Assembly: GCA_937929805.1 (NCBI GenBank)
Contig: CALFUT010000048.1
Span: forward strand, 1-64,000
Reading direction: 5' to 3'
DNA: 64,000 nt
DNA from: an uncultured Pirellulaceae bacterium
Lineage (GTDB): Bacteria > Planctomycetota > Planctomycetia > Pirellulales > Pirellulaceae
Shown piece by piece: positions 41,717-59,475 of the stretch. The position numbers and the translations under genes were made by a program. Under the pieces are notes generated by a model. That model did not search any database. It was not told where the DNA came from and was given only the letters and a program-made list of their open reading frames with translations. The stretch's first letter is position 1. Every line of letters starts with the position of its first letter.

Positions 41717-43969
41717 GTGAACCAACAACCCACTTCTTATAACCCAGTGCGCCCCTTTTCATGGTGGCGTCTGGCCTCCAAAGAGCTGCGTGAAACGCTG
41801 CGTGATCGGAGGACGATTATCACCTTGGTGCTGATGCCGCTGTTGGTGTACCCGATTCTTAGTCTGATTTTTCGCACGTTTCTGCTTTCAAACGCGGAGG
41901 CTTTGGGAGCGGGACAGCCTCTTCAGTACAGCATCGTCTGCTTTTCGGAAAACGGCAGCCAAGCGCTTGCAAACGTTCTTGGGCCGGTCGGTGCCCGGAT
42001 GACTCAGATGGACGATCAGATTCGAAAAGAAAACGGTCAGGACAACAACGTTACCGCATTTTCCAGAAGCAATGTTCCGCTTGCGCGTTTTCATGAACAC
42101 CAGTGGCAGTTTCTCGATGATAAGTCAAAAGCTGAAATGATTTCGGTGGTTGAGTCTGGGCAGGCTGACGTAGGACTTGTCGTGACGCCGGGTTCACCAC
42201 AAACGGGGCCGCTGGGAACCGTCCAGATGTTTACTCGGCCAGACGGTCGCTCGCAGGATGCTGCCAACTATTTGCGTGGCCGATTAAATGAGTTAACGGC
42301 GTACCAGAACGCACAACAATTGGCGCGGGCGGGACTGGCTCCTCGACCCATGCTGGAGTTCGACAACGACGTGTTGATGGACTCGATTAGTGGGCCCAGC
42401 AATTCGAAGGCGAAGTCATTTTCGTTGGCTTCGCTGGTTCCTTTGATCTTGGTGCTGATGACGATCACGGGAGCGGTTTATCCGGCGATTGATTTGACCG
42501 CGGGCGAGCGTGAAAGGGGTACATTGGAGACGCTGATGGCGGCCCCGATTCCCAGAGCCAGCATTCTGATGTCCAAATTTGTGGCGGTGTTGTCCGTTGC
42601 CGTGATGACGGCGATGCTAAATTTGGTCGGTATGGCGGCCACGATCTGGACGTTTCAGTTGGATCAGTTTTTGCCGGGGGATGCCTCGTTTACCACGCTG
42701 ACGATGGCAAAGGTTCTGGGGCTGTTGGTGCTGTTCGCGGCATTTTTCTCGGCGGTGCTATTGGCGGTGACCAGTTACGCGAAAAGCTTTAAGGAAGCTC
42801 AGGCTTATCTTGTCCCGATCATTTTGCTGTCGTTGGGGCCGGGATTGATGGCGATGTTTCCGGGGTTGGAGTTGGCGGGCACGCTGGCGATCACCCCCAT
42901 GATGAACATTCTGTTGCTGGCTCGTGACGTGATCGAAAACACGGTCCAGGTAGTTCCGGCACTGGTTGCGATTTCCTCGACGGCTCTTTATGCGGGCGTG
43001 GCGATTTGGGTTGCGGCTCGAACCTTTGGTTCGTCCTCGATGCTCTACTCCAATCAAGGTAGTGTGTCAGAGCTGTTTCAACGACCTGACGGAATCAGTC
43101 GTACGCTTCAGCCAGCCGCGGCGCTGGGATGTATGGCTTTATTGTTTCCAGTTAATTTTGTGATGATTGGTGTGCTGGGACGATTGTCGACCGATACGAG
43201 TGCTGACCTTGCGGCACGGTTTACCATCATGGGCGCGTTTACAGTTCTTGCATTTGTGGCGATTCCTTATCTGATCGCGTCTCATCAGCGAGCGAACCTG
43301 TCCGAGGTATTTGGTTTGAAAATGCCTCGGTACGTTTATTTGGCGATTGGATTGGTCCTCGGACTGACGTTGTGGCCATTGGTTGCAAGCTTGATTGAAT
43401 TTTACGGGCGACTGGGTGGTGAAGCGGCTCACGCGGCTTGGCAGAAAAGCTTGGTGGCGGAAACATCGGACTTGATCGGCAAGATTCGTAAGGTGTCGCC
43501 CGTCACGATTGCGATTTTTCTGTCGCTTGTGCCGGCGTTTTGCGAGGAATTCTTTTTTCGTGGCATGCTGATGCGGTCGCTATCCCGTTGGCGGGCAGCA
43601 ACGTTTGCGATTGCGTTTTCGGCGGTTGTGTTCGGACTGTTTCATGTTCTCTCTAACAGCGTGATTGCTCTGGACCGCTTGCTTCCGACGACCATGGTTG
43701 GCTTGGTGCTGGGTTATTTGGCTTGGAAATCGGATTCAATTCTTCCAGGCGTGATTCTGCATTCGTTCCACAACGCGGTGGTGGTGTTTCTTGGTTACTA
43801 TCAACCCAGATTGCAAAAGTTTGAATGGTTTCCCGACGAATCGCAATCGATGCCGTGGACTTGGGTCGCGGTGTCTGGGGGCTGTGCCGCGATTGCGATG
43901 CTGTTGCTGTTTCGAATGAAAGTTGATTCCGGTCAAGAAGACGAGCGCAAATTGGAAGTGTCTCGTTGA
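41717..43969 (+). CDS. ABC-2 permease fused to a CPBP intramembrane protease
   Basis: 750 residues. Residues 1-530 are an ABC-2/NatB-type permease: a first helix (IITLVLMPLLVYPILSLIF, about 36-54), a large extracytoplasmic domain (57-225), and five helices, with ERERGTLETLMAAPIPRASI near 258 as the ABC-2 coupling motif. Residues about 535-735 are a CPBP (Abi/CaaX-type) protease: AFCEEFFFRGML near 606, VFGLFHVLSNS near 635 and ILHSFHNAVVV near 679 give the EExxxR, FxxxH and HxxxN sites, all intact. The start is GTG. Such fusions are known in planctomycetes; the substrate of the protease is not. Confidence 0.92.
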   Translation: MNQQPTSYNPVRPFSWWRLASKELRETLRDRRTIITLVLMPLLVYPILSLIFRTFLLSNAEALGAGQPLQYSIVCFSENGSQALANVLGPVGARMTQMDDQIRKENGQDNNVTAFSRSNVPLARFHEHQWQFLDDKSKAEMISVVESGQADVGLVVTPGSPQTGPLGTVQMFTRPDGRSQDAANYLRGRLNELTAYQNAQQLARAGLAPRPMLEFDNDVLMDSISGPSNSKAKSFSLASLVPLILVLMTITGAVYPAIDLTAGERERGTLETLMAAPIPRASILMSKFVAVLSVAVMTAMLNLVGMAATIWTFQLDQFLPGDASFTTLTMAKVLGLLVLFAAFFSAVLLAVTSYAKSFKEAQAYLVPIILLSLGPGLMAMFPGLELAGTLAITPMMNILLLARDVIENTVQVVPALVAISSTALYAGVAIWVAARTFGSSSMLYSNQGSVSELFQRPDGISRTLQPAAALGCMALLFPVNFVMIGVLGRLSTDTSADLAARFTIMGAFTVLAFVAIPYLIASHQRANLSEVFGLKMPRYVYLAIGLVLGLTLWPLVASLIEFYGRLGGEAAHAAWQKSLVAETSDLIGKIRKVSPVTIAIFLSLVPAFCEEFFFRGMLMRSLSRWRAATFAIAFSAVVFGLFHVLSNSVIALDRLLPTTMVGLVLGYLAWKSDSILPGVILHSFHNAVVVFLGYYQPRLQKFEWFPDESQSMPWTWVAVSGGCAAIAMLLLFRMKVDSGQEDERKLEVSR

Positions 43970-44034
43970 CTGACGTGGGAATGGCACTCCATGATCGGTG
44001 GATGGTTTTGCCTGTCTTTGTAACTTGGGAAGTG

Positions 44035-44108
44035 AGCCACAGATGTACACGGATTCACACAGATTGAGGCACGCAAGAATCTGTGTCGATCTGTGTCAAG
44101 CCGTGGCT
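44035..44108. repeat. CCACAGAT-type hairpin repeat overlapping a gene's 5' end
   Basis: AGCCACAGATGTACACGG... (44035-44066) and ...GTCAAGCCGTGGCT (44088-44108) form an imperfect inverted repeat of the same design as those at 10715-10889. The ORF of the next gene runs through it. Confidence 0.7.
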
Positions 44109-47100
44109 GATTATTGTGCGGGGCGAGGCTTCATCATTTGGGTGTTTGTTGCGTTTTGTTTTCTCTGTACGCCTGTTGCAACGTCCGCCGAGGATCGTGT
44201 CACGCTTCCCGACGGATTTCAGTTGACGCAGGTGGCGACGGATGAGTTGGCAACCAACATTTTTTGCATGATCGCGTTACCCGATCGCGGCGTTCTAGTG
44301 TCAGGTCCGGGCTACATCAAAAGACTGGTAGACACGGACGGTGATCAGGTTTTCGACCGCGCTGACCTAATTTCAGATTTCCTCAAATCAGGAGCTCAAG
44401 GGGTGGCAGTCGATGGTGAAGACCTGCTGTGCGTGGGCGACGGAGGAATCTGGCGACTTCCCGGCGTTTTGAAGGTTGACGAAAGTACGGGTGACGGAAG
44501 AAAACCGCCGGTTCTTCTGTTCAAGATTTCTACGCACGGCGAGCATCACGCTCATTCGATTCAGCAAGGCCCGGACGGCTGGTGGTACCACATCGCAGGA
44601 AATCACGCTGAATTTGACGAGGATTCGTGCGAGGGGCCAATCAAGGAGCGTCGAGCCGGAGTCGTGATGCGTTTCAGTCCGGACTTTTCGCAGCGAGAGA
44701 TTGTCGCTCATGGTTTTCGCAACGCATACGACTTTGCGTTTAACTCGACCGATCAGCTTTTTACTTTCGATAGCGATGGAGAGCGCGATCTTGGGTTGCC
44801 ATGGTACCGACCGACACGCGTGTTTGAGATTGTTCCCGGAGACGACGCGGGTTGGGGCAGCAAGACATGGAAGCGACCGTCGTATTACTTTGACATGCCG
44901 CGACTGATCGGTGATGCAGGGCGAGCGAGTCCAACCGGCGTAGTTTGTTATGGAGGCGAGCAGTTCCCGATTGATTACGACGACGCGATCTTTTTGGGTG
45001 ACTGGACCTTTGGTCGAGTGTTGGTTTGTCGTCGTGAGTGGAAAACGGGCAAGTATTTGCCTCCAGAAGAGTTCCTTGTTCCGAAGGATAGTTTTGGTTT
45101 CCCTGTGACCGACTTGGCGGTTGCGAATGGCGGCAGTCTGTTAGTTTCTGTTGGCGGTCGAGGAACCGAGGGTGGTGTTTGGCGAGTGACTTCATCGACG
45201 AAACGAAATGAAAAAGCGGAATCGCTTGGGAAGTACATTTGGGACCGTCGAAAGGCGTTTCACCAAGGCTTGGCAATTGAGGATGCGATCGAGACGGCTT
45301 CGAGGGCGTTCGAAGGGAATGACTCTGCGGCACAAGTCGACGCATTGGCGAATCTGTTGGTTCACAGCCCCCAGTTGGAAATCGATCGATTTGGCGCTAG
45401 TGTCTTAAAGGTGTTGGAAAAGGCGGTGCGATCCAATGATCCGAAGGTTCTGGCGGCGAGCATGCGGTTTGCACAATCTTTGTGCCATGACGATGACAGA
45501 TGGAAGGCATTTTTTCTTTCGAATGGCGTGTCGCGGCGTTTGAATGGTCGTCTTTTCACGCTGGTCACAATGGCATCAGACTTGACAAATCTCGAACGGC
45601 GTCAGCTGTTTTACTATCTCTTGAATTCTGACACTTTCGGAGATGGTGTTGATGACAAGAATTCATTTCCTGACGGCATTGCGTTGCGGTTGGCTCAGCT
45701 TCTGCATGAAGGTGTCGGGCATACCGACGGTTTCTTTTCTTCGGTGGTATCGAACTCGCCAATCGAGCGATCTGAAGTTCAGACGCGGGAAAGCCAAGGG
45801 CTCGTTTTTCACGCAATAAAACAGACAGCTGACAGCGTATTCAAATGGGAGCTCGGGCGGCTTCTTGCGATGGAGCGGACTACTGCACTTTTGGCGGGGG
45901 AGTATTGTCTTGAGCAGATTGTTTCGAAACAAACGGAGGAATTGTTTGATGAATATTTTAGCTCTGATAGTGTGTCCGATGATGCTGTTGGGCTGGGGAC
46001 GTCGGCGTCAATTGACTTGCACTGGCTGATGTGCCTAAGTCAGCTTGAGCCGAAGGAGGATCAAAAGTTTGTCGAACGTTTGGCTAACGGCCTCTTGTTC
46101 ATCAGCGATAAATTCCATGCTCAGGGAGTAAAAACGGATTCTCACTTCCGGCCAATGCTGAACGAACTGGCGTCACGTTTTTTTGAAAAATATCCTCAAA
46201 TCGCGAAACACCTTCTGACGCACGCTAAGTTTGGAAAAGGGACTCATGGATTTCTTTTTGCACACTTTGCCGATAAAGACTTGCCGTTGCTTCAAGAGAA
46301 AGTAGCTACATGGGTGCAGAAGGATCCAAGTCGGGCAACCAATGATCATGTACAAGTTTTGGCTAGAAGGCCGACATTCAAGTCAGTAAAGATGCTTAGA
46401 GAACTGGCAAAGAATCCTTCATTGAAAGACCAAGTCGCACTCGCGTTGGTTCAATGTGGTGATGCGAGCGATCGGCAACGGTTTGTCGAGGGCTTACTGT
46501 CGCTTGATCCTCGCGTGCAGAAAGAGTCCGCGATCGCATTGCGGAAATTGGTTCCTGATGTTTCGGCTAAAGCAGCGGCGGCCGCGATGCGAACCGCGCT
46601 GCGGCTGGGTAATGAGAAACAGGATGTTTCGATCCGAGACCAAATGATTCTCCTGCTGCGGAAATTCGCTGGGAAGGAGTTTGGCTATCAGTTGGGTAAG
46701 CCGGAACTCAGGCAGAGCGAAGCCTTGCGTCGATGGCGAGCATTTTTGATCGAGCAGCAGCCTGAACTGGCGGAAGTGCTGAAACCCGCCGAATCTGGTC
46801 AGCAGCAAATGGCACGGTTTGAAAAATTGGATTGGGAATCTGGCCTAGCAGATCGTGGCAAACAAGTTTACGAAAAACTGCAATGTGCCGCCTGTCACGG
46901 GCCCGGGCGAGCCTTGGGGCCGCGACTTGAGGGAGTCACCAAACGCATGGCTCGAAACGATCTGCTAGCCGCGATCGTGAATCCGGATGCTCAGGTTTCG
47001 GACCGTTATCGAACGACGCTGTTTGAAACGATCGACGGCCAGTTGGTTTCGGGATCAGTGATCTACGAAAATGTTGACGGTGTCACCGTCCGTGAACCAA

Positions 47101-47240
47101 ACGGGAAAACGGTGCGACTGAACCGCGATCAGATTGAAACACGGCGACGATCTGCCAGATCGATGATGCCCAGCGGCTTGCTAGATCAGACGAGCGATCA
47201 AGAAGTGGCTGACCTGTTGGCCTATCTGAAGACGCTTTGA
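44103..47240 (+). CDS. PVC-type heme-binding protein with beta-propeller and HEAT-like part
   Basis: About 1045 residues from a GTG at 44103; the open frame extends to an ATG at 43998, but that extension is encoded by a hairpin repeat. A hydrophobic leader (FIIWVFVAFCFLCTPVATSA) is followed by a dehydrogenase-like propeller: LPDRGVLVSGPGYIKRLVDT, VAHGFRNAYDFAFNSTDQLF, SPTGVVCYGGEQFP. Middle HEAT-like helices span residues 420-900. A c-type heme site, QCAACHGPGRALGP (about 925-940), and SARSMMPSGLLDQ (probable Met ligand) close the protein. This is the PVC-type heme-binding architecture of planctomycetes, usually thought to oxidise sugars. Start uncertain; GTG at 44142 also possible. Confidence 0.85.
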   Translation: MADYCAGRGFIIWVFVAFCFLCTPVATSAEDRVTLPDGFQLTQVATDELATNIFCMIALPDRGVLVSGPGYIKRLVDTDGDQVFDRADLISDFLKSGAQGVAVDGEDLLCVGDGGIWRLPGVLKVDESTGDGRKPPVLLFKISTHGEHHAHSIQQGPDGWWYHIAGNHAEFDEDSCEGPIKERRAGVVMRFSPDFSQREIVAHGFRNAYDFAFNSTDQLFTFDSDGERDLGLPWYRPTRVFEIVPGDDAGWGSKTWKRPSYYFDMPRLIGDAGRASPTGVVCYGGEQFPIDYDDAIFLGDWTFGRVLVCRREWKTGKYLPPEEFLVPKDSFGFPVTDLAVANGGSLLVSVGGRGTEGGVWRVTSSTKRNEKAESLGKYIWDRRKAFHQGLAIEDAIETASRAFEGNDSAAQVDALANLLVHSPQLEIDRFGASVLKVLEKAVRSNDPKVLAASMRFAQSLCHDDDRWKAFFLSNGVSRRLNGRLFTLVTMASDLTNLERRQLFYYLLNSDTFGDGVDDKNSFPDGIALRLAQLLHEGVGHTDGFFSSVVSNSPIERSEVQTRESQGLVFHAIKQTADSVFKWELGRLLAMERTTALLAGEYCLEQIVSKQTEELFDEYFSSDSVSDDAVGLGTSASIDLHWLMCLSQLEPKEDQKFVERLANGLLFISDKFHAQGVKTDSHFRPMLNELASRFFEKYPQIAKHLLTHAKFGKGTHGFLFAHFADKDLPLLQEKVATWVQKDPSRATNDHVQVLARRPTFKSVKMLRELAKNPSLKDQVALALVQCGDASDRQRFVEGLLSLDPRVQKESAIALRKLVPDVSAKAAAAAMRTALRLGNEKQDVSIRDQMILLLRKFAGKEFGYQLGKPELRQSEALRRWRAFLIEQQPELAEVLKPAESGQQQMARFEKLDWESGLADRGKQVYEKLQCAACHGPGRALGPRLEGVTKRMARNDLLAAIVNPDAQVSDRYRTTLFETIDGQLVSGSVIYENVDGVTVREPNGKTVRLNRDQIETRRRSARSMMPSGLLDQTSDQEVADLLAYLKTL

Positions 47241-47286
47241 TTCACCAAGCAAGACGCACTTTTCCGGTCTAAAACAGCGCATGAAA

Positions 47287-47308
47287 AAAGCAGCGTTGCC
47301 GCTGCTTT
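47287..47308. terminator. Bidirectional terminator between convergent genes
   Basis: Perfect stem AAAGCAGCG / CGCTGCTTT with a TTGC loop, preceded by A and followed by T runs. It lies between the heme protein (ends 47240) and the PEP-CTERM gene (ends 47328) and serves both. Confidence 0.8.
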
Positions 47309-47327
47309 TCGCAAATCGAATTCAATT

Positions 47328-47963
47328 TTAAGACCGATTTCGTTTTCTTCGCATCATTGATGCAAGCATTGAAACCCCGATCAACAGGCCTGCAGACGGT
47401 TCAGGAATTGCGGTCCCAGCATTGATTGTAAAACTGAAGGTTCGTCCATCTTGGAAAATAATGGAATCGAGGGCGTTGCCACCTAAAGTACCGAAATCGT
47501 TTAAAGACGAAAAATCACTTAAAGTAAACTCGGTTGTCCCGGGGGCGATCGCTGATATATCCACGTCCCCCAACCGCACGGAAGTTCCAGCGACATTGCT
47601 GAAGATCAGTCTGCGCTGATCGAGAGAACTTGTCGTCACTTCATCCTCGCTACCAAAGCTTGGAGAGAAGGCTGGATTCGCAGTGAATGAAGTTATTTCA
47701 CTAGCGGCTCCCGAGGTTGCACTCCCGTTCAACGAGATGCCAAAGCCATTGAGCCCTTCAGTCGATAACGCCGTGTCAGATTCGGTTTCGATAGCAACAA
47801 CCGAAATTGTCTGAGTGGTGCCAACATCGACGTTAAAGTCGTCCCCAAACGAGTTACCACCGTCTGCTGAAAACACAATATCGACTTGGCCAACCGCTGG
47901 GTTGTCGAACGTTAGCACACAGACAAGGCCCGACAAAATGAGCATTGTTTTAAGTTTGTTCAT
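47328..47963 (-). CDS. PEP-CTERM sorting-domain protein
   Basis: About 211 residues, exported. The ATG at 47963 gives a clean signal peptide (MNKLKTMLILSGLVCVLTF, cleaved near AVGQV); the longer frame to 48005 begins with His/Lys-rich residues and is less likely. A Ser/Thr/Asp-rich beta domain (GGNSFGDDFNVDVGTTQTIS) follows. The C-terminus has IPEPSAGLLIGVSMLASMM followed by RRKRNRS, the PEP-CTERM signal for exosortase processing. No enzyme motif. The second PEP-CTERM protein in the window; the exosortase gene itself is not here. Confidence 0.85.
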   Translation of the reverse strand: MNKLKTMLILSGLVCVLTFDNPAVGQVDIVFSADGGNSFGDDFNVDVGTTQTISVVAIETESDTALSTEGLNGFGISLNGSATSGAASEITSFTANPAFSPSFGSEDEVTTSSLDQRRLIFSNVAGTSVRLGDVDISAIAPGTTEFTLSDFSSLNDFGTLGGNALDSIIFQDGRTFSFTINAGTAIPEPSAGLLIGVSMLASMMRRKRNRS

Positions 47964-48102
47964 AGATTTTCTCTCGTGGTGTTTTCGTTTGTGGAAAAAA
48001 ATCAATCAATGACTTGGACGGTGTTTTTTGCTCTGTAAATTTCAGTTAAATCGTAGTTGTTCGACCTAAAAAATGAACAACAAAAATTTGAATCACCCAA
48101 CG

Positions 48103-49185
48103 CTAAAACGCTAAAATTCGGAAAAGGTTTGGGATGAACGCTCCGATGTCGGCCCCATCGACGGCACCATCTGCATTGAAGTCGAAACTGTCGTTGTAGC
48201 TGGGTGAACCTTCTGTGAGGAACAAAGTGGGTATGATGAGTCCAACATCAGCACCGTCGACAGCGCGATCACAATTGGCGACATCACCAAAGAGCCGATA
48301 CAATTTGTCGTCGACTTGATTGCCATTTTCATCGAGTTGATCATTGTTACCGATTACCAATTGTCCTCCCGGAGTTCCATCCTCATCTGCGTCGAATGCG
48401 TTGCCTTGGGCGTTGATGATCAAATCTCCATCGATCGTCAATAAATAATTACCGTCGGACAACGAGCCGGATGGGTCAACTCCGCTTCCTGAGAAAGTTA
48501 GCGTGACTGTCGTCGAGCCGTTAACTAATTCGGGTGTCCCGAAAGAGACAGTGGGGCTGATCGAGTTGTCATCGCGATTGACGATGGAAAAGGCATTGGC
48601 ACCAATTTGAACATCGCCCGGAAGCGTAACGTCAATCTCCCTTAGCATCGATCGCTGATTTTCGCCTTGGCTAACAACCACTTCGACGGGATCGGGAACC
48701 AAAATTCTAACAACACCGGATGGATCGAGACGTGGTTGTCCTTGGACAATTCGATCGAGCCTAATGTCGCCGAAAGCTGCAACGAAAGCTGCGGGGGTGG
48801 TAGCTCCGGGAGCCAAGACGCTTCCGAGGTTATGTACCCCGGTAGGAAGCGGGAATCCAAATGCTGCCAATTGATTGTCGGTGTACGTTTCGGCGTTGAG
48901 CAGCAAAACGGTTTCGAAGTTAACCACGTCATACGAACCGGTCCCGCCTGGATCCACATCCGACAAGTCAAACGTGTTATCGGATTGCCCAGTGATTACG
49001 ACTGCGGCAACGCCATTGGTCGTGACGATCAAATCCCCAGTGGCTGGGTCATAGTAAAGCTCAGCGTCCCCTGAGGAAGCCGGAGTGATGGCACTCACCA
49101 CAATTGGGGTGTTCTGCAACGCATGAGACGTCGAACACGGAGCCAAGCAAAGGAGGACAAATAACAGGGGCGTTAGAATTCGCAT
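48103..49185 (-). CDS. Exported protein with dockerin-like EF-hand repeats
   Basis: About 360 residues. The ATG at 49185 begins a strong signal peptide (MRILTPLLFVLLCLAPCSTS, cleaved near HALQN); the open frame extends to 49476 but the first 97 codons look non-coding. The body is an extracellular beta-rich region. Two dockerin-type calcium loops end the protein: DVANCDRAVDGADVGLIIP and DFNADGAVDGADIGAFIP, with Asp/Asn at the loop positions. Planctomycete dockerins usually have no visible cohesin partner; none is seen here. Role probably in extracellular matrix attachment. Confidence 0.82.
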   Translation of the reverse strand: MRILTPLLFVLLCLAPCSTSHALQNTPIVVSAITPASSGDAELYYDPATGDLIVTTNGVAAVVITGQSDNTFDLSDVDPGGTGSYDVVNFETVLLLNAETYTDNQLAAFGFPLPTGVHNLGSVLAPGATTPAAFVAAFGDIRLDRIVQGQPRLDPSGVVRILVPDPVEVVVSQGENQRSMLREIDVTLPGDVQIGANAFSIVNRDDNSISPTVSFGTPELVNGSTTVTLTFSGSGVDPSGSLSDGNYLLTIDGDLIINAQGNAFDADEDGTPGGQLVIGNNDQLDENGNQVDDKLYRLFGDVANCDRAVDGADVGLIIPTLFLTEGSPSYNDSFDFNADGAVDGADIGAFIPNLFRILAF

Positions 49186-49489
49186 CTCAAGTCCGAAAGT
49201 GAGTTGGAAGAGTGGCCAGCATTGCAACGCACCTCGATCTCTTTCACGAAGGCGGGCATGACTGGTAAGTAATCGGCAAGCGATCTGATTCGGGTGACTA
49301 AGGCACCTGAATAAACCGACTAGGGGGGATGTTCTAAATTTAATCGCGTTTTCGGGACTTGTCAACAATGGTCTTTGCCCAAAACCACTATTCGAAAGTC
49401 CGTTCGTCTCGCGAGGTGATTGCGGCCCTCCGTGGTTGCTGCGTAGATCGACCGCTCTTGGTTTCATTTTCACCATACGGACCGGCCGT

Positions 49490-51616
49490 TTAATAGAATT
49501 TGACCAGTGTTACGATCAGGACGGCGAAGAAGAACATTGGGAAGTAGAAAGCCTTGTAGACTTGATTCTCGTTGAAGTCAAAAAGTTTAGTCTTATCCAA
49601 GGTATAGGCCATCAGATTAAACGTTGTCAGCAGGACCATCCCGTAAGTGACAAAATAGAAGTACTCAAGATAAATCAGTTCGCCCGTCACCACTTCTTTT
49701 CGCAAGTCGATATGTGAAAAGATTAGGACAAAAATGAATGCTGCCATGCTCTCGATGATCCCTTGGCGTTCGGTGGTTTTCCGGCAGGCGATCAACAGGA
49801 TGAAGATCATCATCAGAGCAACAACGATGGGAATCAGATAAGTTACGAACACGTTCAATAGATTTCGTCTGAGGTGCACGTTAAAGTGCAAAACCGGAAC
49901 CTGATTGCGACCAAGTTCGGCACCGAACCCGAAATCTGTACTCGATTGTTCGGTGGAGAAGTTGAAAAAGCTTTCAGTGATCTCGTTTCCAGACAAGACG
50001 ATGGACTCCGCCACGCCGGGCACCGAGGAAGGGGTTGTTTGACGATAGCTGGCCAAATCGGGAACCAACATTACTTTTCCCAGTGTGTCTGCGGGTTGGA
50101 CTTCGATGTCGATCTGCCGCTTGTCAAAGGGGAAGTCGGAGTATTCAAAATTTAGTTGGAGTGTCACGCGATAGTTCCAACCGATCAGCAAGTAACCTTC
50201 CTCGCCTTCCTTGCCCTCAAATTTCTGGCGGTACGATTCTTCGATCAACGACGCTTCTGCAAATGGAGAAGTCTGAGGGAAAGCAATTCCCGGCAACACG
50301 GAGTCCCCGGCGTCGAGCGGAATTTTTTGCCAGATCGTTCCTCCCACATTCAAGTTGTAGCTGTCTTGGAAGTCCATTCGCTGGATGTGAATGCCGGTCG
50401 GAATTGGAATCGCTGGTGGTCGTTTCAGCTCTTCGGCTCGCTTATGCTGCTGCTGAACAAAACGTTGCACAGACGAGTAGTCAGTAACTGGGAAGCTGAC
50501 GTGTTCGATTTTTGGACGTTCAGACTGATGTTCCAATCGACCAATTAAAAAGATGTTAGCGACCAACAATGCAGTCGAAATCGCACTCAGTCGCCAGATT
50601 TCCCCTCGGTCAAGTTCATCAAAGCTGTAAACAATGGCCAGAACGCAAACCAGTAGTAGCGATCCTAGGATCGAGAGATGCACGTATCGGCGGTTGATCT
50701 GTTTCTTGTCGGATAGCAAATCGCTCTCTAAAAACGACATTCCGATTCCCCATCCTGATACAACGATTTGGTCGTAGCAAAAGAGTGCTCTTTGGTTATC
50801 TTTGTCGTCGTGGTAATCGATAAGCCCCGTTTCGCCTGCCAACAGTTTTTCGCAGGCGCGATTGAACTCGCGAGGGTGATCGCTCGCAGATGCCCAATCT
50901 TTCAGCGATGATTTCCCCACAAGATCAGGGTCTGGGTGAGCGAGAAAGATCCCGTTGGGTGACGTGATGATTCCGTAGCCGGTTCTACCCAAGCTGATCT
51001 CATGAATTTGTTGCCCAAAGTCTTTACACAGAAAACTGACTGTGATGGTGCCTCGCACTTTTTCACTTTTTGGGCCGCTGCCGTAAGTGAACGGGACGCC
51101 AAGATCAACATACCAATTTCCTCCGGCAGCTCCGTAATATGGCTCGACCCATTGCATGCCATGATCTCTTACGTCGGTGTACCACGCCGTTTTGGAGCTG
51201 CCCGCGACGGTGTAGTCGTAGGATTCTTCGATTTGAAGAAACGACTGCGATCCCTTGTCATAGTAGGGCGAGAAAAGTTTCGTTTCTTTGTCGAAAGCGA
51301 AGGGCTCGAACGCGGCCGTGACGCCCTGAATCTCTGCGATGCTGAGGGAGCTTTCCTTCAGCAGTTTTCGAACCTCCTTGGCCGAGTAGTTATTTTCACC
51401 AAAGAGTTTGGCCAGCCGTTTTCCCTCGTCGGTGACCTTGGTAAGCAGATTGCTAATTTCGTCTCGCAGCTGACGAGTCGTGGTGATTGCTTGCGTTTGA
51501 AGATGTTGGGTCCGGTCGGCCGAGAAAACCGAGAACTCGTACGCAGTCCATGCAAGCAGGATCAGCAGTGCTAGTCCGATTAGATAAAGAATTTTCTTCA
51601 ACAAGACATGACCCAC
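49490..51616 (-). CDS. dCache sensor fused to a pentameric ligand-gated ion channel
   Basis: 708 residues. TM1 at 7-24 leads to a periplasmic dCache-like sensor (about 35-305; GMQWVEPYYGAAGGNWYVDL near 153, then GRTGYGIITSPNGIFLAHP near 210). TM2 (312-332) and TM3 (341-360) flank a short cytosolic loop. A Cys-loop-receptor ligand-binding beta sandwich covers about 365-583, with the loop FEYSDFPFDKRQIDIEVQP (490-508) and no Cys bridge, as in prokaryotic channels. Four helices follow: M1 586-611, M2 619-636 (pore), M3 646-671, M4 687-705; the C-terminus ends outside, matching pLGIC topology. GTG start. The ligand, ion and physiological role are unknown; the sensor probably gates the channel. 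Confidence 0.85.
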   Translation of the reverse strand: MGHVLLKKILYLIGLALLILLAWTAYEFSVFSADRTQHLQTQAITTTRQLRDEISNLLTKVTDEGKRLAKLFGENNYSAKEVRKLLKESSLSIAEIQGVTAAFEPFAFDKETKLFSPYYDKGSQSFLQIEESYDYTVAGSSKTAWYTDVRDHGMQWVEPYYGAAGGNWYVDLGVPFTYGSGPKSEKVRGTITVSFLCKDFGQQIHEISLGRTGYGIITSPNGIFLAHPDPDLVGKSSLKDWASASDHPREFNRACEKLLAGETGLIDYHDDKDNQRALFCYDQIVVSGWGIGMSFLESDLLSDKKQINRRYVHLSILGSLLLVCVLAIVYSFDELDRGEIWRLSAISTALLVANIFLIGRLEHQSERPKIEHVSFPVTDYSSVQRFVQQQHKRAEELKRPPAIPIPTGIHIQRMDFQDSYNLNVGGTIWQKIPLDAGDSVLPGIAFPQTSPFAEASLIEESYRQKFEGKEGEEGYLLIGWNYRVTLQLNFEYSDFPFDKRQIDIEVQPADTLGKVMLVPDLASYRQTTPSSVPGVAESIVLSGNEITESFFNFSTEQSSTDFGFGAELGRNQVPVLHFNVHLRRNLLNVFVTYLIPIVVALMMIFILLIACRKTTERQGIIESMAAFIFVLIFSHIDLRKEVVTGELIYLEYFYFVTYGMVLLTTFNLMAYTLDKTKLFDFNENQVYKAFYFPMFFFAVLIVTLVKFY

Positions 51617-51644
51617 TCGGGGGAGTAATGTGGAGACCAGTTTA

Positions 51645-51728
51645 GGCAGATGGTAAGTTGAAACCTACCACTTGGAATACTGAAACCTCGACAGATACCC
51701 TGTCGTCGAAGGTAGGTTTCATTCTGCC
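51645..51728. repeat. Long imperfect hairpin between the AP2-like and channel genes
   Basis: GGCAGA...TTGAAACCTACC (51645-51669) and GGTAGGTTTCATTCTGCC (51711-51728) are complementary with a bulge; a nested CGACAG/CTGTCG hairpin sits inside. It may be a terminator for the AP2-like gene or a leader structure of the channel gene. Confidence 0.65.
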
Positions 51729-51812
51729 AGTTGCTTGCGCCTTGCGTACACTTGCTCAACTCAATCCGAGCGTTTGGGAAGATCGTCCTGCTGCCGTGTC
51801 GTGGCTAAATCA

Positions 51813-52298
51813 TTAAACGAACTCGACCTGTTTTTGCCGAAGGATTTCAGAGCATTTCTTTGTTTTCTTGAACGTCTTCAATCGATTAAAAATCCATTCG
51901 CGATCGACTGTTTCGTGTTTACGGGCCAGCCAAGCACAGAGGAACGCGTCTTGGTCACCGTACTTTCGAGCCGAAAAGCTGATGCCGCCTCGGTTCGGGC
52001 ATTCGGGCCAGCGAGCACTCCAACGGATGTCCTCACTAAAGTTTTTGTTGTGGCCGTTCTTGTTTAGCTGAGCATAAACGCCAACAAACCCCGACTCGTT
52101 TCGGGTGGTCATCCGCCCTTTTCCGGATTCAACGGGCGGTAGCTTCTTCTTTTGAGCTTTGACCCAGCGTTGGGCAGCCGCTTCCGCTTTGGCCCAAGTT
52201 CCGTACTGCGCGAGCGTAAAATTTTTCTGATGATTGACTCCCTTTCGCATCAGGCGAGCCATCACACATTTGGACGGTTTGTTCTTGGTGGTGTGCAT
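51813..52298 (-). CDS. AP2/ERF-like DNA-binding domain protein
   Basis: About 161 residues, very basic. The segment NESGFVGVYAQLNKNGHNKN...WSARWPECPNRGGISFSARK followed by YGDQDAFLCAWLARKHE has the three-strand plus helix pattern of AP2/ERF domains (GVY..., W.A....., ..F.ARKYGDQDAF), which occur in planctomycetes beside homing endonucleases or alone. The N-terminal MARLMRKGVNHQKNFTLAQY with WAKAEAAAQRWVKAQ is a second helical, DNA-binding-looking part. The ATG at 52298 is chosen over the in-frame 52370. No HNH motif is seen. It may be a regulator or a mobile-element relic. Confidence 0.6.
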   Translation of the reverse strand: MHTTKNKPSKCVMARLMRKGVNHQKNFTLAQYGTWAKAEAAAQRWVKAQKKKLPPVESGKGRMTTRNESGFVGVYAQLNKNGHNKNFSEDIRWSARWPECPNRGGISFSARKYGDQDAFLCAWLARKHETVDREWIFNRLKTFKKTKKCSEILRQKQVEFV

Positions 52299-52701: not shown

Positions 52702-55700
52702 TCAACCTCGTTCGGCGAAAACACTATCGATGTCATTCGTCGGTTGGTGCCCCGCAAGTCGAGGCATTTTTACTACTTCTGAAATCAGCGGCAGATTCGA
52801 TTCAGGCGGGATGTCTTCTTCATCAAGCGAAACAGCAATTTCAGTTCGTGAAGCGGCCGGCAACGTTAATTTTGGAGTGGAGCTTGATGCCTGAAACGTT
52901 ATCGGTTCAGTATCGCCAAACAGTAGAGCTGAAGAGGGAGCTAGGTTGATGTCTCTTCCAAGATTAGCTACCAAAATGAATGCGTCGTTCAAGACATCCG
53001 TAATTTGGTCGCCGTTAAAATCGCCATACGACCATGTGGCTTCACCGTTATTGCCAAGGTTCTCCACCAAAACGAATGCGTCATTGAGAACATCGACTCG
53101 ACCGTCAAGATTTACGTCGCCGGGAATCGCCAAGTAGATGGTTGTTGTTACGTCTTCGGAGAGCGGCCGAAAACCGTTCTGATCAAGAATTGAAGCTGCA
53201 CTAATCGTTAACTCATAATTCCCCGGTTCAAGTGGATCGAATTGATCTGAATAGGTCCAGACGACAGTGAAGGTTTCAGTATCGTAGCTCTCGGCTGAGG
53301 GGGAAACATAAGTGACTTCATCTGTTTGTAAGTTCCGAACCATCAACTCGGTATTCGTGACTTCGACATCCTTGTCGAATTGGAAGCTTAGAGAGTTAAC
53401 CCGGTCAGGATATCTCAGCCATCCGGGGTTCTCGACGTTTCGTTGTATTGATAAGACCTGCGGAGGAAACGGCACATTGCCAAACACTTGAACCGACACA
53501 TTCGCGATTTCAGCATCGACTGAATGCAGCATGACAAAGTATCGGCCATCGGAATCAGGGATCCAAGACTCAACGGTCGCAGATGACTGACCGAAAACGT
53601 CGACGTGTGTTAAACCGGCTTCGTCAATCACCTTTAGTCGGAAGAAGTCGCTGCCCGGAGCGTTGAGGCCGACGTTAATGTCGATCGGTTCGTTGGCGGC
53701 CCCGTAGAAATGCATCAACGCGAACGAACCATTCGGTATTGTGGCGTTGAAGCTATCGCCGTTTTCTTCGAAAGTTCCGTCCTGTGGCACAACAGAGGAT
53801 GGTGGAGCGACTACGTTGGCAGCAACAGCCAGAGTCCGAAGTCGAACGTCGACCAGTTCGTTTCCGGTTTCACTGTTTCCGCTGATTTGCAAGTAATATG
53901 TTCCGGCTTCGGTTGCTAAAAACTGCCCGGCAATGCCATTCGCACTACTAAAAGACGCGATGTTTTGGCCGTCTGTACCTATTGCCTGCACCGTCAGGTT
54001 GTCTTGGTCTGGAAAGTTGACCGTGTTAGCTGTCAGAAAAACGGGGCCGGCTGCTGCGACGTCAAGGGCGACAACATGGGACTCACCCGTCGCAACAGAG
54101 AACTCCAACTGATTGCCGTTGCTGATCGTCGAATGGTTCTCCGGAAGCACGACGGTTGAGGATAACTCAATCTGAAACGAGAAAGCCGGTCGGACGGGTG
54201 GATCAACCTCGTTATCAACGACCGCGTAATATTGCCCCGCTTCTGCAGCTACAAAATTTGCGGTCACATCACCGTAGTCTTGCACCGAAGCAACAACAGC
54301 ACCGGTAGAATCGTAGATTTCGATTCTTGGCCGGGAGCCGCTGACGACGGACAGCGATACCGGACCAGCAGCGAACGTTTCAAATTGGAAGATGCTGAAG
54401 CCAGCTTTGGGGGTCATCGCAACAATGGGGCTATCAGGATAGAGGATTCCGTCTTGGCCGGATTGCAGCTCGGGATTGTCCAGAAGGGCGACGACACGCA
54501 ATTCATACTCGACGGGAACCGCCGAGGTGGGCGTCAGGACGATCGTGTGATCACCCGCCATCGATGGAATGAAGGAAAATCCGTTTCCATGCGAACTTGC
54601 AGGGACAGATTCCAACACGTGGCCATTCGGATCGAAAATTGTCAGTTGACGATGGAAGTTGTTGCTGACAGCCCCCAGAGACACGAATGTTGGACCTGGG
54701 GTTTCAATCGGTACGGTGTAAAACGCGGACGAATCGATCGGAACGGTGAGCGAGGTTAGCCGACCATTGACCAACTGCTGCTCGTGTGAAAGTTGTTCAA
54801 AAGGGGTTCCGTTGAACGAAACGCGACGCACGAAAACGGTAGCATCGGTCGATCCCAAGTTTGAGAGCGCCATCGCGACTGAGCCCGAAGTGGAAAACTC
54901 ACCCAGACTTGGATTGAAAAACCTTGAGATTGACGCATCATTGAGCCCACCTGCGTCTGACAAAATTCTTTGGACTTGCTCAAGCCGCGAGCCTCTCACG
55001 AGCAGTTGACTGTTCACGTCGGTGTCCACATCAAATTGGACAAGAATCGTCTCGCCGGCTGGAATGGTGACGGGATACTCTCGTCCATTGACGGCCAGAT
55101 CCACGTCGCCTAGCACCAAGCTGGAGCCGGGAATCGGATCGCGAAACGAGAAAGCGCGAACGAAGAACTCGGAGATTGCATCTGTCCCGACTTGCTCCAC
55201 CACCAAGGTGTATTCACCGACCTGCAACGCATCCAAGGCGAGCATCGTCGACGAGTCAGTCGTTTCGTAGAAGAAGGTTTCGCCGCCGAATGGGCTTCTC
55301 GATCGGGCCGGCGTCCCGTCGGGCTGATAAATTCGGATTGCCAATTGTGAGTCGTCCGAATCACTCAGCTCCGACGCGACGGCCGCGATCCATCCAGGTG
55401 AAGCGACGTTGAATTTGAATGTCTTGAACGAACCGTTTCCATCAGCGAGCGTGCCGAAACTCTCTTGCCCGTTGGACAGGCTGATCGCTTGCGAGTTCGT
55501 CAGGATCAGGTTGTTTGGGATGGAAGTCGCCGATAACGTGAACGACATGCTATCTGCGGTTCCGTTGAATCGGCCGTCTTGCACGACTGCGTAGTACCGA
55601 CCCGCGACCGTAGGTTCAAACAAGGCGCTCGCTCGGTTTTGAGGAGAGATCCCGTCGCCCTGGTCCTCGGACACAATGCGGCCATCGGGCGAGTAAATGC

Positions 55701-56940
55701 GTAGCATCGGTGTGGCGGTGGCGTGGTCGGTTTCCAGCAAAACTCGGGTCGTCGTCAATTGTGTGACGTCAATTGGAAAAAGATTGAACGGTGCCAAAAG
55801 CGGTAACGAAGAAGTTACTGTTTCACCAATGCCAAGTTCTTGGTCCCTGTTTTCAATTAAATCCAAAGGTTCGGCGCTGGTCTCAGGCAGTGATAGAAAT
55901 CGGACGGAACGCTCAAGGTTGCTGGTTGAGCGATACCCGTTGCTAATCAAAGCCGTCAACTTTCCCGTTTGCTGTTGGCCGATTTGGTACTGGTAGAAAC
56001 CATCGGCGTTGTCGTACCGGTTGATCTCAGGTTCAACAATTCGACCGTTTTCGCCCAACAAGATGACGTCTCCATACGTCGTACTTGAACCGCCAACATA
56101 TGCCGATAGCAATACGGTTCCCGGTTGGTCGACTTGTATGGAAACCGTGGAGTGCGTGCCAAAAGGAAACGAGATATCGACTTCGCCGCCATTAGCGAGC
56201 ATCGCATCGCGATCGACGTTTAAGCCATAAGGTTGCACAACGTTAGTTACACGAGTGCGAAATTCAACGTCAACCGGGTCCGTGTTAATAACCGCCAGCG
56301 TGTAGGTTCCCGGTTGAGCATCGACATCCTGTTTCAGTCCGCGGCCGTCGAACCGCACGGAGTTGCTGATAAAGTTTCCAGCGGGGTCAAATACGAACCC
56401 TGTTGTCGCACTGCGTATTGTGCCCGCCTGAGAAAAACGGACGAATCCTGCGGCAGTGACATCGAACGAAAATGTGCGTAACGCGGACGCGGCAATGATT
56501 CTTTCTTCTTCGACACCATTCTGAAGTGATAAATCCTCATCAGCAATCAATGACGGATTGTCTGATAACTGAATCGCCCGGATCTTAAAATCCATGGCGT
56601 CATTGCTTCTCGCATCTGAGACAATAATCGAGTAGGTGCCTATATCTGCTTCAAAGCGACGGTAGTCGTTGTCTCTTCGATCGCCAGCCCGAACCGTTTC
56701 GACCAGGTTTCCCGCTGCGTCATTGATGCTGATAACAGGACTCGCGACGGTTGACGCCAGCTCGCCCACGAATACTTGGACCTGCCCCGGAGAGCTGACC
56801 TGAAACTCATATGTTTCGGTTTCACCAGCGTCGAAACCACCAGTTAATTCTTGGCCATTTGCAATTGAAGCCAGTAGGTGGCGGGGTTCAAGGTGGTTGT
56901 ACTGCCAGCGGTCAGGACGGATTCTTTTTCTGGATCGCAC
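52702..56940 (-). CDS. Giant LEPR-type surface protein with PPC-like repeats and dockerin-like tail
   Basis: 1412 residues, GTG start with AGGA six bases upstream. The N-terminus is RSRKRIRPDRWQYNHLEPR followed by HLLA, the LEPR-XLL signature of planctomycete exported proteins. Then follow about eight to ten beta-sandwich units of 110-130 residues with recurring phrases such as AGTYTLAVINTDPVDVEFR, VGEYTLVVEQVGTDAISEF and AGQYYAVVDNEVDPPVR, resembling bacterial pre-peptidase (PPC) domains. A Big/Ig-like domain (FPPQVLSIQRNVENPGWL...) and two dockerin-like loops (GDVNLDGRVDVLNDAFVLV, GDFNGDQITDVLNDAFILV) come before a Ser/Pro tail. No peptidase motif. A cell-surface adhesin or matrix role is inferred. 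Confidence 0.88.
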   Translation of the reverse strand: MRSRKRIRPDRWQYNHLEPRHLLASIANGQELTGGFDAGETETYEFQVSSPGQVQVFVGELASTVASPVISINDAAGNLVETVRAGDRRDNDYRRFEADIGTYSIIVSDARSNDAMDFKIRAIQLSDNPSLIADEDLSLQNGVEEERIIAASALRTFSFDVTAAGFVRFSQAGTIRSATTGFVFDPAGNFISNSVRFDGRGLKQDVDAQPGTYTLAVINTDPVDVEFRTRVTNVVQPYGLNVDRDAMLANGGEVDISFPFGTHSTVSIQVDQPGTVLLSAYVGGSSTTYGDVILLGENGRIVEPEINRYDNADGFYQYQIGQQQTGKLTALISNGYRSTSNLERSVRFLSLPETSAEPLDLIENRDQELGIGETVTSSLPLLAPFNLFPIDVTQLTTTRVLLETDHATATPMLRIYSPDGRIVSEDQGDGISPQNRASALFEPTVAGRYYAVVQDGRFNGTADSMSFTLSATSIPNNLILTNSQAISLSNGQESFGTLADGNGSFKTFKFNVASPGWIAAVASELSDSDDSQLAIRIYQPDGTPARSRSPFGGETFFYETTDSSTMLALDALQVGEYTLVVEQVGTDAISEFFVRAFSFRDPIPGSSLVLGDVDLAVNGREYPVTIPAGETILVQFDVDTDVNSQLLVRGSRLEQVQRILSDAGGLNDASISRFFNPSLGEFSTSGSVAMALSNLGSTDATVFVRRVSFNGTPFEQLSHEQQLVNGRLTSLTVPIDSSAFYTVPIETPGPTFVSLGAVSNNFHRQLTIFDPNGHVLESVPASSHGNGFSFIPSMAGDHTIVLTPTSAVPVEYELRVVALLDNPELQSGQDGILYPDSPIVAMTPKAGFSIFQFETFAAGPVSLSVVSGSRPRIEIYDSTGAVVASVQDYGDVTANFVAAEAGQYYAVVDNEVDPPVRPAFSFQIELSSTVVLPENHSTISNGNQLEFSVATGESHVVALDVAAAGPVFLTANTVNFPDQDNLTVQAIGTDGQNIASFSSANGIAGQFLATEAGTYYLQISGNSETGNELVDVRLRTLAVAANVVAPPSSVVPQDGTFEENGDSFNATIPNGSFALMHFYGAANEPIDINVGLNAPGSDFFRLKVIDEAGLTHVDVFGQSSATVESWIPDSDGRYFVMLHSVDAEIANVSVQVFGNVPFPPQVLSIQRNVENPGWLRYPDRVNSLSFQFDKDVEVTNTELMVRNLQTDEVTYVSPSAESYDTETFTVVWTYSDQFDPLEPGNYELTISAASILDQNGFRPLSEDVTTTIYLAIPGDVNLDGRVDVLNDAFVLVENLGNNGEATWSYGDFNGDQITDVLNDAFILVANLGRDINLAPSSALLFGDTEPITFQASSSTPKLTLPAASRTEIAVSLDEEDIPPESNLPLISEVVKMPRLAGHQPTNDIDSVFAERG

Positions 56941-57068
56941 AAATATTCCTGTCGCATAAGAGGCGTTACACGGACGTTAATGACCTCTTAGGGTATCAGA
57001 AGATCGTTTGTAAGCAAGCAATTAATACTTTACAGTCGCGGTTAGACGATGATCGCCAAACGGAATGC

Positions 57069-57106
57069 AAAAAAGCCGCCTGCCAGAAATTCTGGCAAGC
57101 GGCTTC
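57069..57106 (-). terminator. Terminator of groEL
   Basis: Stem AGCCGC-C-TGCCAGA / TCTGGCA-A-GCGGCT with one mismatch; on the minus strand it is followed by TTTTTT. It lies about 120 bases past the groEL stop. Confidence 0.9.
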
Positions 57107-57222
57107 TATCTGAACCATCCTGAGGGCGACGATTTTTGAATCGAAGCCGTTCGTTTTATCGGGCCGATGGGTCTTTGCCCGTTTGTGCGATTCGCGGCGA
57201 CGATGCACCGCGATCCGTCGGA

Positions 57223-58875
<1,653 letters not shown>

Positions 58876-58945
58876 TTAAAAGTTGGTTTGGTTGGCGTGA
58901 GTGCCAGTTTGATCGGTTCGACTTCCGGCACACGACGAATGCCGG

Positions 58946-59272
58946 TTACTCGATAACCGCCAGCACGTCGTCTTCACGCATCAGCAAGAATTCGTCGTCG
59001 CCCAATTTAATCTCGTCGGGACCATAGCTGGTGAACAGAACTTGGTCGCCCGCTTTCAGTTGCAGCGGTCCACGGGTGCCGTCTTTTAGCAAGCGTCCGT
59101 TACCGACAGCGATCACGGTTCCTCGTGAAGGTTTATCCTTGGCCGACTCAGGCAGCAAGATGCCCCCAGCGGTTGTACCGAGCGATTCCTCGCGCTCGAC
59201 CACAATGCGATCGCCGATTGGCTGCAGGTTGGTTGATTTCTTCTTGGCCTTCTTGGTTTTGGTCGCTGCCAT
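58946..59272 (-). CDS. groES: Co-chaperonin GroES
   Basis: 10-kDa lid of the GroEL ring. 108 residues including a basic N-terminal extension (MAATKTKKAKKKST) not usual in GroES. LQPIGDRIVVEREE starts the domain; SLGTTAGGILLPESAKDKPS is the mobile loop region that docks on GroEL, and GTVIAVGNGRLL and AGDQVLFTSYGPDEIKL follow. Strong Shine-Dalgarno GGAGG nine bases ahead of ATG. It leads the groES-groEL operon. Confidence 0.97.
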   Translation of the reverse strand: MAATKTKKAKKKSTNLQPIGDRIVVEREESLGTTAGGILLPESAKDKPSRGTVIAVGNGRLLKDGTRGPLQLKAGDQVLFTSYGPDEIKLGDDEFLLMREDDVLAVIE

Positions 59273-59475
59273 CAGATCTGATCCTCCGAATGTGTCTGTC
59301 AGGGCTTCCGGAAATTTGCCGGTATCTGGAAACTCGTTGGCAGAGAGCCGTCACGATCCGAAGATGCACCGATTCCCTGCCATTTTTGCGGTTTGAAAAA
59401 ACTCAGCCTCCCAAAAGGCAAGTGGCGCGCCAAAGTTTGGAGAAACCAAATTTCTGAGCCCCGTTTGCAATGCAG

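Follow-up and report, generated by a model that had tools for sequence, protein, structure and literature searches.

The window, a 64,000-nucleotide stretch of the contig CALFUT010000048.1 from an uncultured Pirellulaceae bacterium, carries on its minus strand one open frame at positions 49490-51616, with a GTG start, 708 codons, and no internal stops. The frame, whose relatives align over their full or nearly full length, encodes a 708-aa dCache-TM-TM-pLGIC (pentameric ligand-gated ion channel) fusion. The true start may be a TTG located a few codons downstream of the GTG, in line with where the Saprospiraceae relatives begin, which leaves the anatomy unaffected. The structure was predicted with AlphaFold2, using a 19-row alignment (mean pLDDT 81), and the helices were assigned from hydropathy and from DSSP on the model. 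TM1 (residues 4-22; 51551-51607) opens a long N-terminal helix (residues 2-74) and is followed by the dCache sensor domain (residues 37-302; 50711-51508). TM2 (residues 304-330; 50627-50707) and TM3 (residues 337-364; 50525-50608) form a hairpin whose short turn is cytoplasmic, and W341 of TM3 is conserved in 18 of the 19 aligned rows. The extracellular ligand-binding sandwich of the pLGIC (residues 398-584; 49865-50425), recognized by its GLIC fold match and invariant residues, contains the FPFD Pro-loop motif (F495-D498; 50123-50134) and has the invariant R584 as its C-terminal end. The pore domain (residues 586-707; 49496-49861), placed by the model, a GLIC profile alignment, and alignment columns, comprises M1 (586-610, with P596), M2 (617-641), M3 (649-673), and M4 (685-707), and its R639 and E651 are invariant. 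All these features lie on the minus strand. Hydropathy and the model thus agree with the alternation of TM1, sensor, TM2, loop, TM3, receptor, and M1 to M4 that the initial annotation had read from the letters. As judged from sequence and model, each subunit has seven TMs in this domain order, and both the dCache sensor and the pLGIC receptor domain are predicted from the TM layout to be periplasmic.

Several lines of evidence identified the N-terminal half as a dCache domain. Pfam dCache_1 matched the protein with E=7e-10 and 39.3 bits, slightly below its 45-bit cutoff, while MCP-like_PDC_1 scored 32.4 bits, over its 27-bit cutoff. The family profile matched the dCache sensor 3li8 with E=1.6e-26, and Foldseek with VIA-align placed residues 37-302 of the predicted model on 3li8 over 246 residues at 2.5 Å (Z 26.9). 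The absence of a Cache fold, which would have undermined the original reading, can therefore be set aside. The double-PDC fold bracketed by TM1 and TM2 is that of dCache_1 sensors such as 3li8 (mmHK1S-Z2) and PctA, which are alike in fold and flanking TMs. In contrast to those sensors, whose output is a kinase or an MCP, the window protein leads into a channel and is devoid of the amino-acid motif residues.

Alignment to PctA showed T143 at the position of R126 (dCache_1AA) and S194 at that of D173 (dCache_1AA and dCache_1AM), so that neither residue set is present in the window protein; both positions are unconserved in the family. Since amino-acid sensors need R126 and D173 there, the sequence does not favor amino acids or amines, the ligands proposed in the initial annotation, for the Cache site. 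W145 and Y146, the equivalents of PctA W128/Y129, are kept in the pocket. A purine motif is likewise absent at two of its positions, where McpH F167 and D169 align to D171 and G173. Of the 19 rows, 14 have D, E, or N at position 171, which hints at a polar/acidic pocket particular to the family without supporting a ligand call.

The C-terminal half was assigned to the pLGIC family. In the model, residues 398-708 superposed on GLIC residues 11-315 with Z 20.1 over 278 residues at about 3.0 Å (Foldseek and VIA-align), covering the ECD and M1-M4. The same part folded alone again gave GLIC as the best match (Z 19.0), with GluCl, GlyR, GABA-A, and ELIC entries at most one Z unit away; DeCLIC was not among the 50 fold matches listed, which excludes nothing. 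The Foldseek comparison of the two halves, suggested at the outset, thus returned dCache structures for one and GLIC for the other, and together with the Pfam and profile matches it bears out a whole dCache and a whole pLGIC in one chain. The sequence match to GLIC is weak (family profile E about 4e-4; 8e-5 against a GLIC-GABAA chimera), and the assignment leans also on the predicted fold, in which a beta-sandwich ECD precedes four TM helices, the topology of pLGICs. The residues expected of a Pro-loop receptor were found as F495, P496, F497, and D498 in the loop, R584 before M1, and P596 in M1. P496, D498, and R584, invariant across the 19 rows, correspond to the Pro-loop and the acidic/basic residues called highly conserved in PMC549065. 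The FPFD loop has no cysteines around it, which makes the protein a Pro-loop rather than a metazoan-type Cys-loop receptor. GLIC, the Gloeobacter proton-gated channel, is the nearest solved fold (Z 19-20) and has the Pro-loop and M1-M4 in common with the channel half, but it lacks an N-terminal sensor and is only 11-13% identical to it. No Pfam pLGIC model matched the window protein or its 18 aligned relatives, whereas 17 of these 19 members gave a dCache_1 match, and routine annotation would therefore overlook the channel. An NCBIfam search of the window protein returned nothing useful.

The domain pair was used to scan 84,980 species genomes. The scan gave 24 loci with mostly full-length frames of 700-760 aa in the order TM1, dCache, TM2-TM3, LBD, and M1-M4. 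The carriers were Saprospiraceae, Cytophaga, Bacteroidales, Methanosarcina, other Methanosarcinales, Cyanobacteria (as tandem pairs), Chloroflexota, Dependentiae, Vibrio, and a Planctomycetaceae MAG. When the channel half was used to search a sample of the phylum, it picked up one relative of the same type (L005, with the same frame again in L026) and several pLGICs that were either plain or fused to solute-binding-type domains. L007, L013, and L014, pLGICs of Planctomycetota, resemble the window protein in carrying a sensor-domain fusion; however, their N-terminus is soluble and TAXI-like by inspection, without the TM hairpin of the window protein. A TAXI-like solute-binding N-terminus was likewise recognized by inspection in L015, and a genome holds up to three such pLGICs (G143). 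The same-phylum Cache matches L002/L003 were discarded, as they are not channels and look like Cache-HAMP-phosphatases by inspection.

Some relatives showed further variations. An archaeal frame of 1276 aa (L020:3064-6891) has two dCache segments ahead of one pLGIC. In Cyanobacteria, two diverged Cache-pLGICs stand in tandem (L021:5029-9835 and L023:3803-8460) in a conserved neighborhood of pentapeptide-repeat-like and DUF815 AAA genes. In Vibrio mexicanus (L033), a gene with SBP_bac_3 and Gly_transporter domains (L033:7185-8363) lies downstream and touches the stop codon of the Cache-pLGIC, and a DUF2589 gene lies upstream. A porin-like outer-membrane gene directly precedes the Saprospiraceae channels (L016:3917-5068 and L017:3879-5045), with a gap of 20-40 bp in both copies and weak DcaP/Porin_O_P matches in L016; a nitrilase-family gene adjoins in L017. 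The porin-like gene is absent from the window slot.

The fusion type itself is not new, contrary to the initial annotation. Tasneem et al. (Genome Biol 2004; PMC549065) described MCP-N and Cache fused to the LBD-4TM core as a third architectural theme in bacteria and archaea, with Methanosarcina, Cytophaga, and Microbulbifer as hosts. In their proposal, several ligand-interaction domains influence one another allosterically, and they suggested that the Cache domains may help in preliminary concentration or sensing. The window protein joins this group, as judged by its Methanosarcina/Cytophaga homologues rather than the 2004 sequences, and has the same order, with MCP-N+Cache (now dCache) N-terminal to LBD+4TM. 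It differs in that its phylum is a new host of a full-length copy, one that apparently came from a Bacteroidota-type lineage, and in that the TM2-TM3 hairpin is spelled out here, relative to the text of that paper. Later surveys covered other ground: terminal domains were trimmed off in Jaiteh 2016, and the ion-channel entries of the 2016 Cache survey were limited to calcium-channel-type domains. As of 2025, DeCLIC was described as the only pLGIC with a partially characterized NTD, an extension of two jelly-roll lobes (PMC12664993). Both proteins are prokaryotic pLGICs with a large periplasmic N-terminal extension; whereas no TMs belong to the DeCLIC lobes, the dCache of the window protein is anchored by TMs of its own, and the stretch between TM1 and TM2 resembles dCache structures rather than the DeCLIC type. 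In the literature searched, with most subscription journals outside reach, we found no structure, ligand, current, or functional study of any Cache-pLGIC.

The closest relatives of the window protein belong to another phylum. Its identity is 53% to a Saprospiraceae protein and 20-28% to more distant rows. A maximum-likelihood tree joined it to two Saprospiraceae proteins with support of 100/100 and next to Cytophaga with 98/96, the Cytophaga join carrying the tree program's long-branch warning. The other planctomycete member was placed elsewhere, on a long branch and in an unsure position. The channel gene was found in 0 of 27 congeners. Comparison of the window with L044 by blastn/tblastn, combined with Pfam matches of the neighbors, defined an accessory slot at 47237-51810 that holds a PEP-CTERM gene, a dockerin gene, and the channel. 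In congener G010, an unrelated gene that looks on inspection like a GMC oxidoreductase takes the place of 47237-51810, while window positions 42409-47236, 51810-52298, and 57064-59436 are collinear with this congener. The nesting in Saprospiraceae/Cytophaga, the accessory slot, and the absence from the 27 congeners make a horizontal gain from a Bacteroidota (Saprospiraceae-like) lineage likely. That the nearest relatives lie in another phylum might also suggest a contaminant contig, or a sequencing error joining two genes. Both artefacts can be regarded as refuted and their probability as negligible: the sequence on either side of the slot is collinear with that of a congener, and the same uninterrupted order recurs in independent relatives of several phyla, which disposes of a frameshift joining two genes. 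An adjacent gene is 68% identical to its copy in a congener, and with the collinear flanks this marks the chromosome as planctomycete-type, as first supposed.

We found no operon partner for the channel within the window, where its neighbors are the PEP-CTERM protein, the dockerin protein, and an AP2-like gene. The 13-bp gap to the dockerin ORF is probably only apparent; this ORF seems overlong, since a likely signal peptide begins some 300 bp inside it. At 52702-56940, the window has a gene for a 1412-aa PPC-domain surface protein that congener G010 lacks at that place; this segment, beside groEL, is another accessory slot.

Taken together, sequence and model make it fairly probable that the gene encodes an inner-membrane Pro-loop pentameric ligand-gated channel with a built-in periplasmic dCache, gained horizontally from a Saprospiraceae-like lineage. 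Five subunits would assemble around an M2 pore, as in GLIC, and TM1 and the TM2-TM3 hairpin would keep each dCache next to the receptor ring. The dCache sits between TM1 and TM2, an arrangement familiar from chemoreceptors; after the turn, TM3 returns the chain to the periplasm, where the ECD follows. Because the dCache is tethered to the membrane at both ends and joined to the receptor through a third TM, it most likely lies beside the ECD ring and not on top of it, and the two stacked ligand sites once envisaged are unlikely. Ligand in the Cache pocket would move TM2/TM3, which would be packed against the pore domain from outside; alternatively or additionally, the ECD could be shifted through the TM3-ECD linker. 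Such movement would bias gating by whatever binds the ECD, and the output would be ion flux or depolarization rather than phosphotransfer or methylation.

It is also conceivable, although we consider it unlikely, that a ligand at the classical ECD site alone gates the channel and that the dCache acts non-allosterically, either by concentrating ligand locally or as a domain for assembly/anchoring. This is a version of the 2004 proposal of Tasneem et al. (PMC549065), whose suggestion of preliminary concentration or sensing speaks for it, as do the lost AA and AM motif positions and the poor conservation of the dCache pocket positions. However, the whole dCache and the TM hairpin are retained across distant phyla, the W145/Y146 positions are mostly aromatic, and the archaeal relative L020 carries two dCache segments. 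A sensor-gated channel remains our preferred reading, and it poses the question of whether a TM hairpin can place the gating of a nerve-receptor-type channel under the control of a chemotaxis-type sensor. Cache-pLGICs were noticed 20 years ago, and the window member, intact and with close relatives at 53-47% identity, is a candidate for such a test.

More surprising than the window fusion itself is the association of some relatives with contractile injection systems (CISs). In Methanosarcinaceae (L025/L045), a co-directional gene run leads to the channel and comprises sheath, tube, CIS_tube, hub, PAAR, gp25, baseplate J, and CIS12- and CIS13-like genes; Dehalococcoidia (L030/L046) have a similar arrangement. 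The loci include G455:C29:18500-38400 (L045) and G457:C30:98500-118400 (L046), and further ones are G460:C114, G539:C77, G488:C169, G582:C1, G633:C54, and L024. Among 186 genomes of the archaeal order, channel and sheath share a contig at a distance of about 13-18 kb in five (G455, G539, G488, G582, and G633), on the same strand in four of them, and many other channel carriers in this set have no sheath. The distance is about 14 kb in two Chloroflexota genomes. The linked genes stand at the 3' end of the CIS genes or within about 13-18 kb, and the archaeal and Chloroflexota members form separate tree branches. The window genome gave no sheath match, so the link concerns the family and not directly the window gene.

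This distribution raises the rather doubtful possibility that Cache-pLGICs are a sensor-gated family whose Methanosarcinales and Chloroflexota branches became a CIS membrane component, with the window protein free-standing. If so, CIS docking or firing would be under membrane control, exerted by chemosensing or by ion flux, a role comparable to that of CisA, a Streptomyces membrane protein. The eCIS papers searched mention neither ion channels nor Cache, and the operon link gives some relatives a concrete biological context absent from the literature searched. The same gene positions at CIS operon ends could point to a non-conducting receptor, in which the pLGIC fold is a membrane-embedded conformational switch or a docking platform for partners such as the CIS. 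In favor of this reading, M2 lacks a consistent charge ring, the family members differing in charge where M2 reaches the cytoplasm. These charges, and an M2 alignment to GLIC that may be off by a residue or more, give no call of ion selectivity. We nevertheless regard a protein without a pore as improbable: M2 is an uninterrupted helix with a conserved pattern, the characterized relatives of this fold conduct ions, and the window genome gave no match to a CIS sheath. At L024, two eCIS_core genes lie directly upstream of the Cache-pLGIC.
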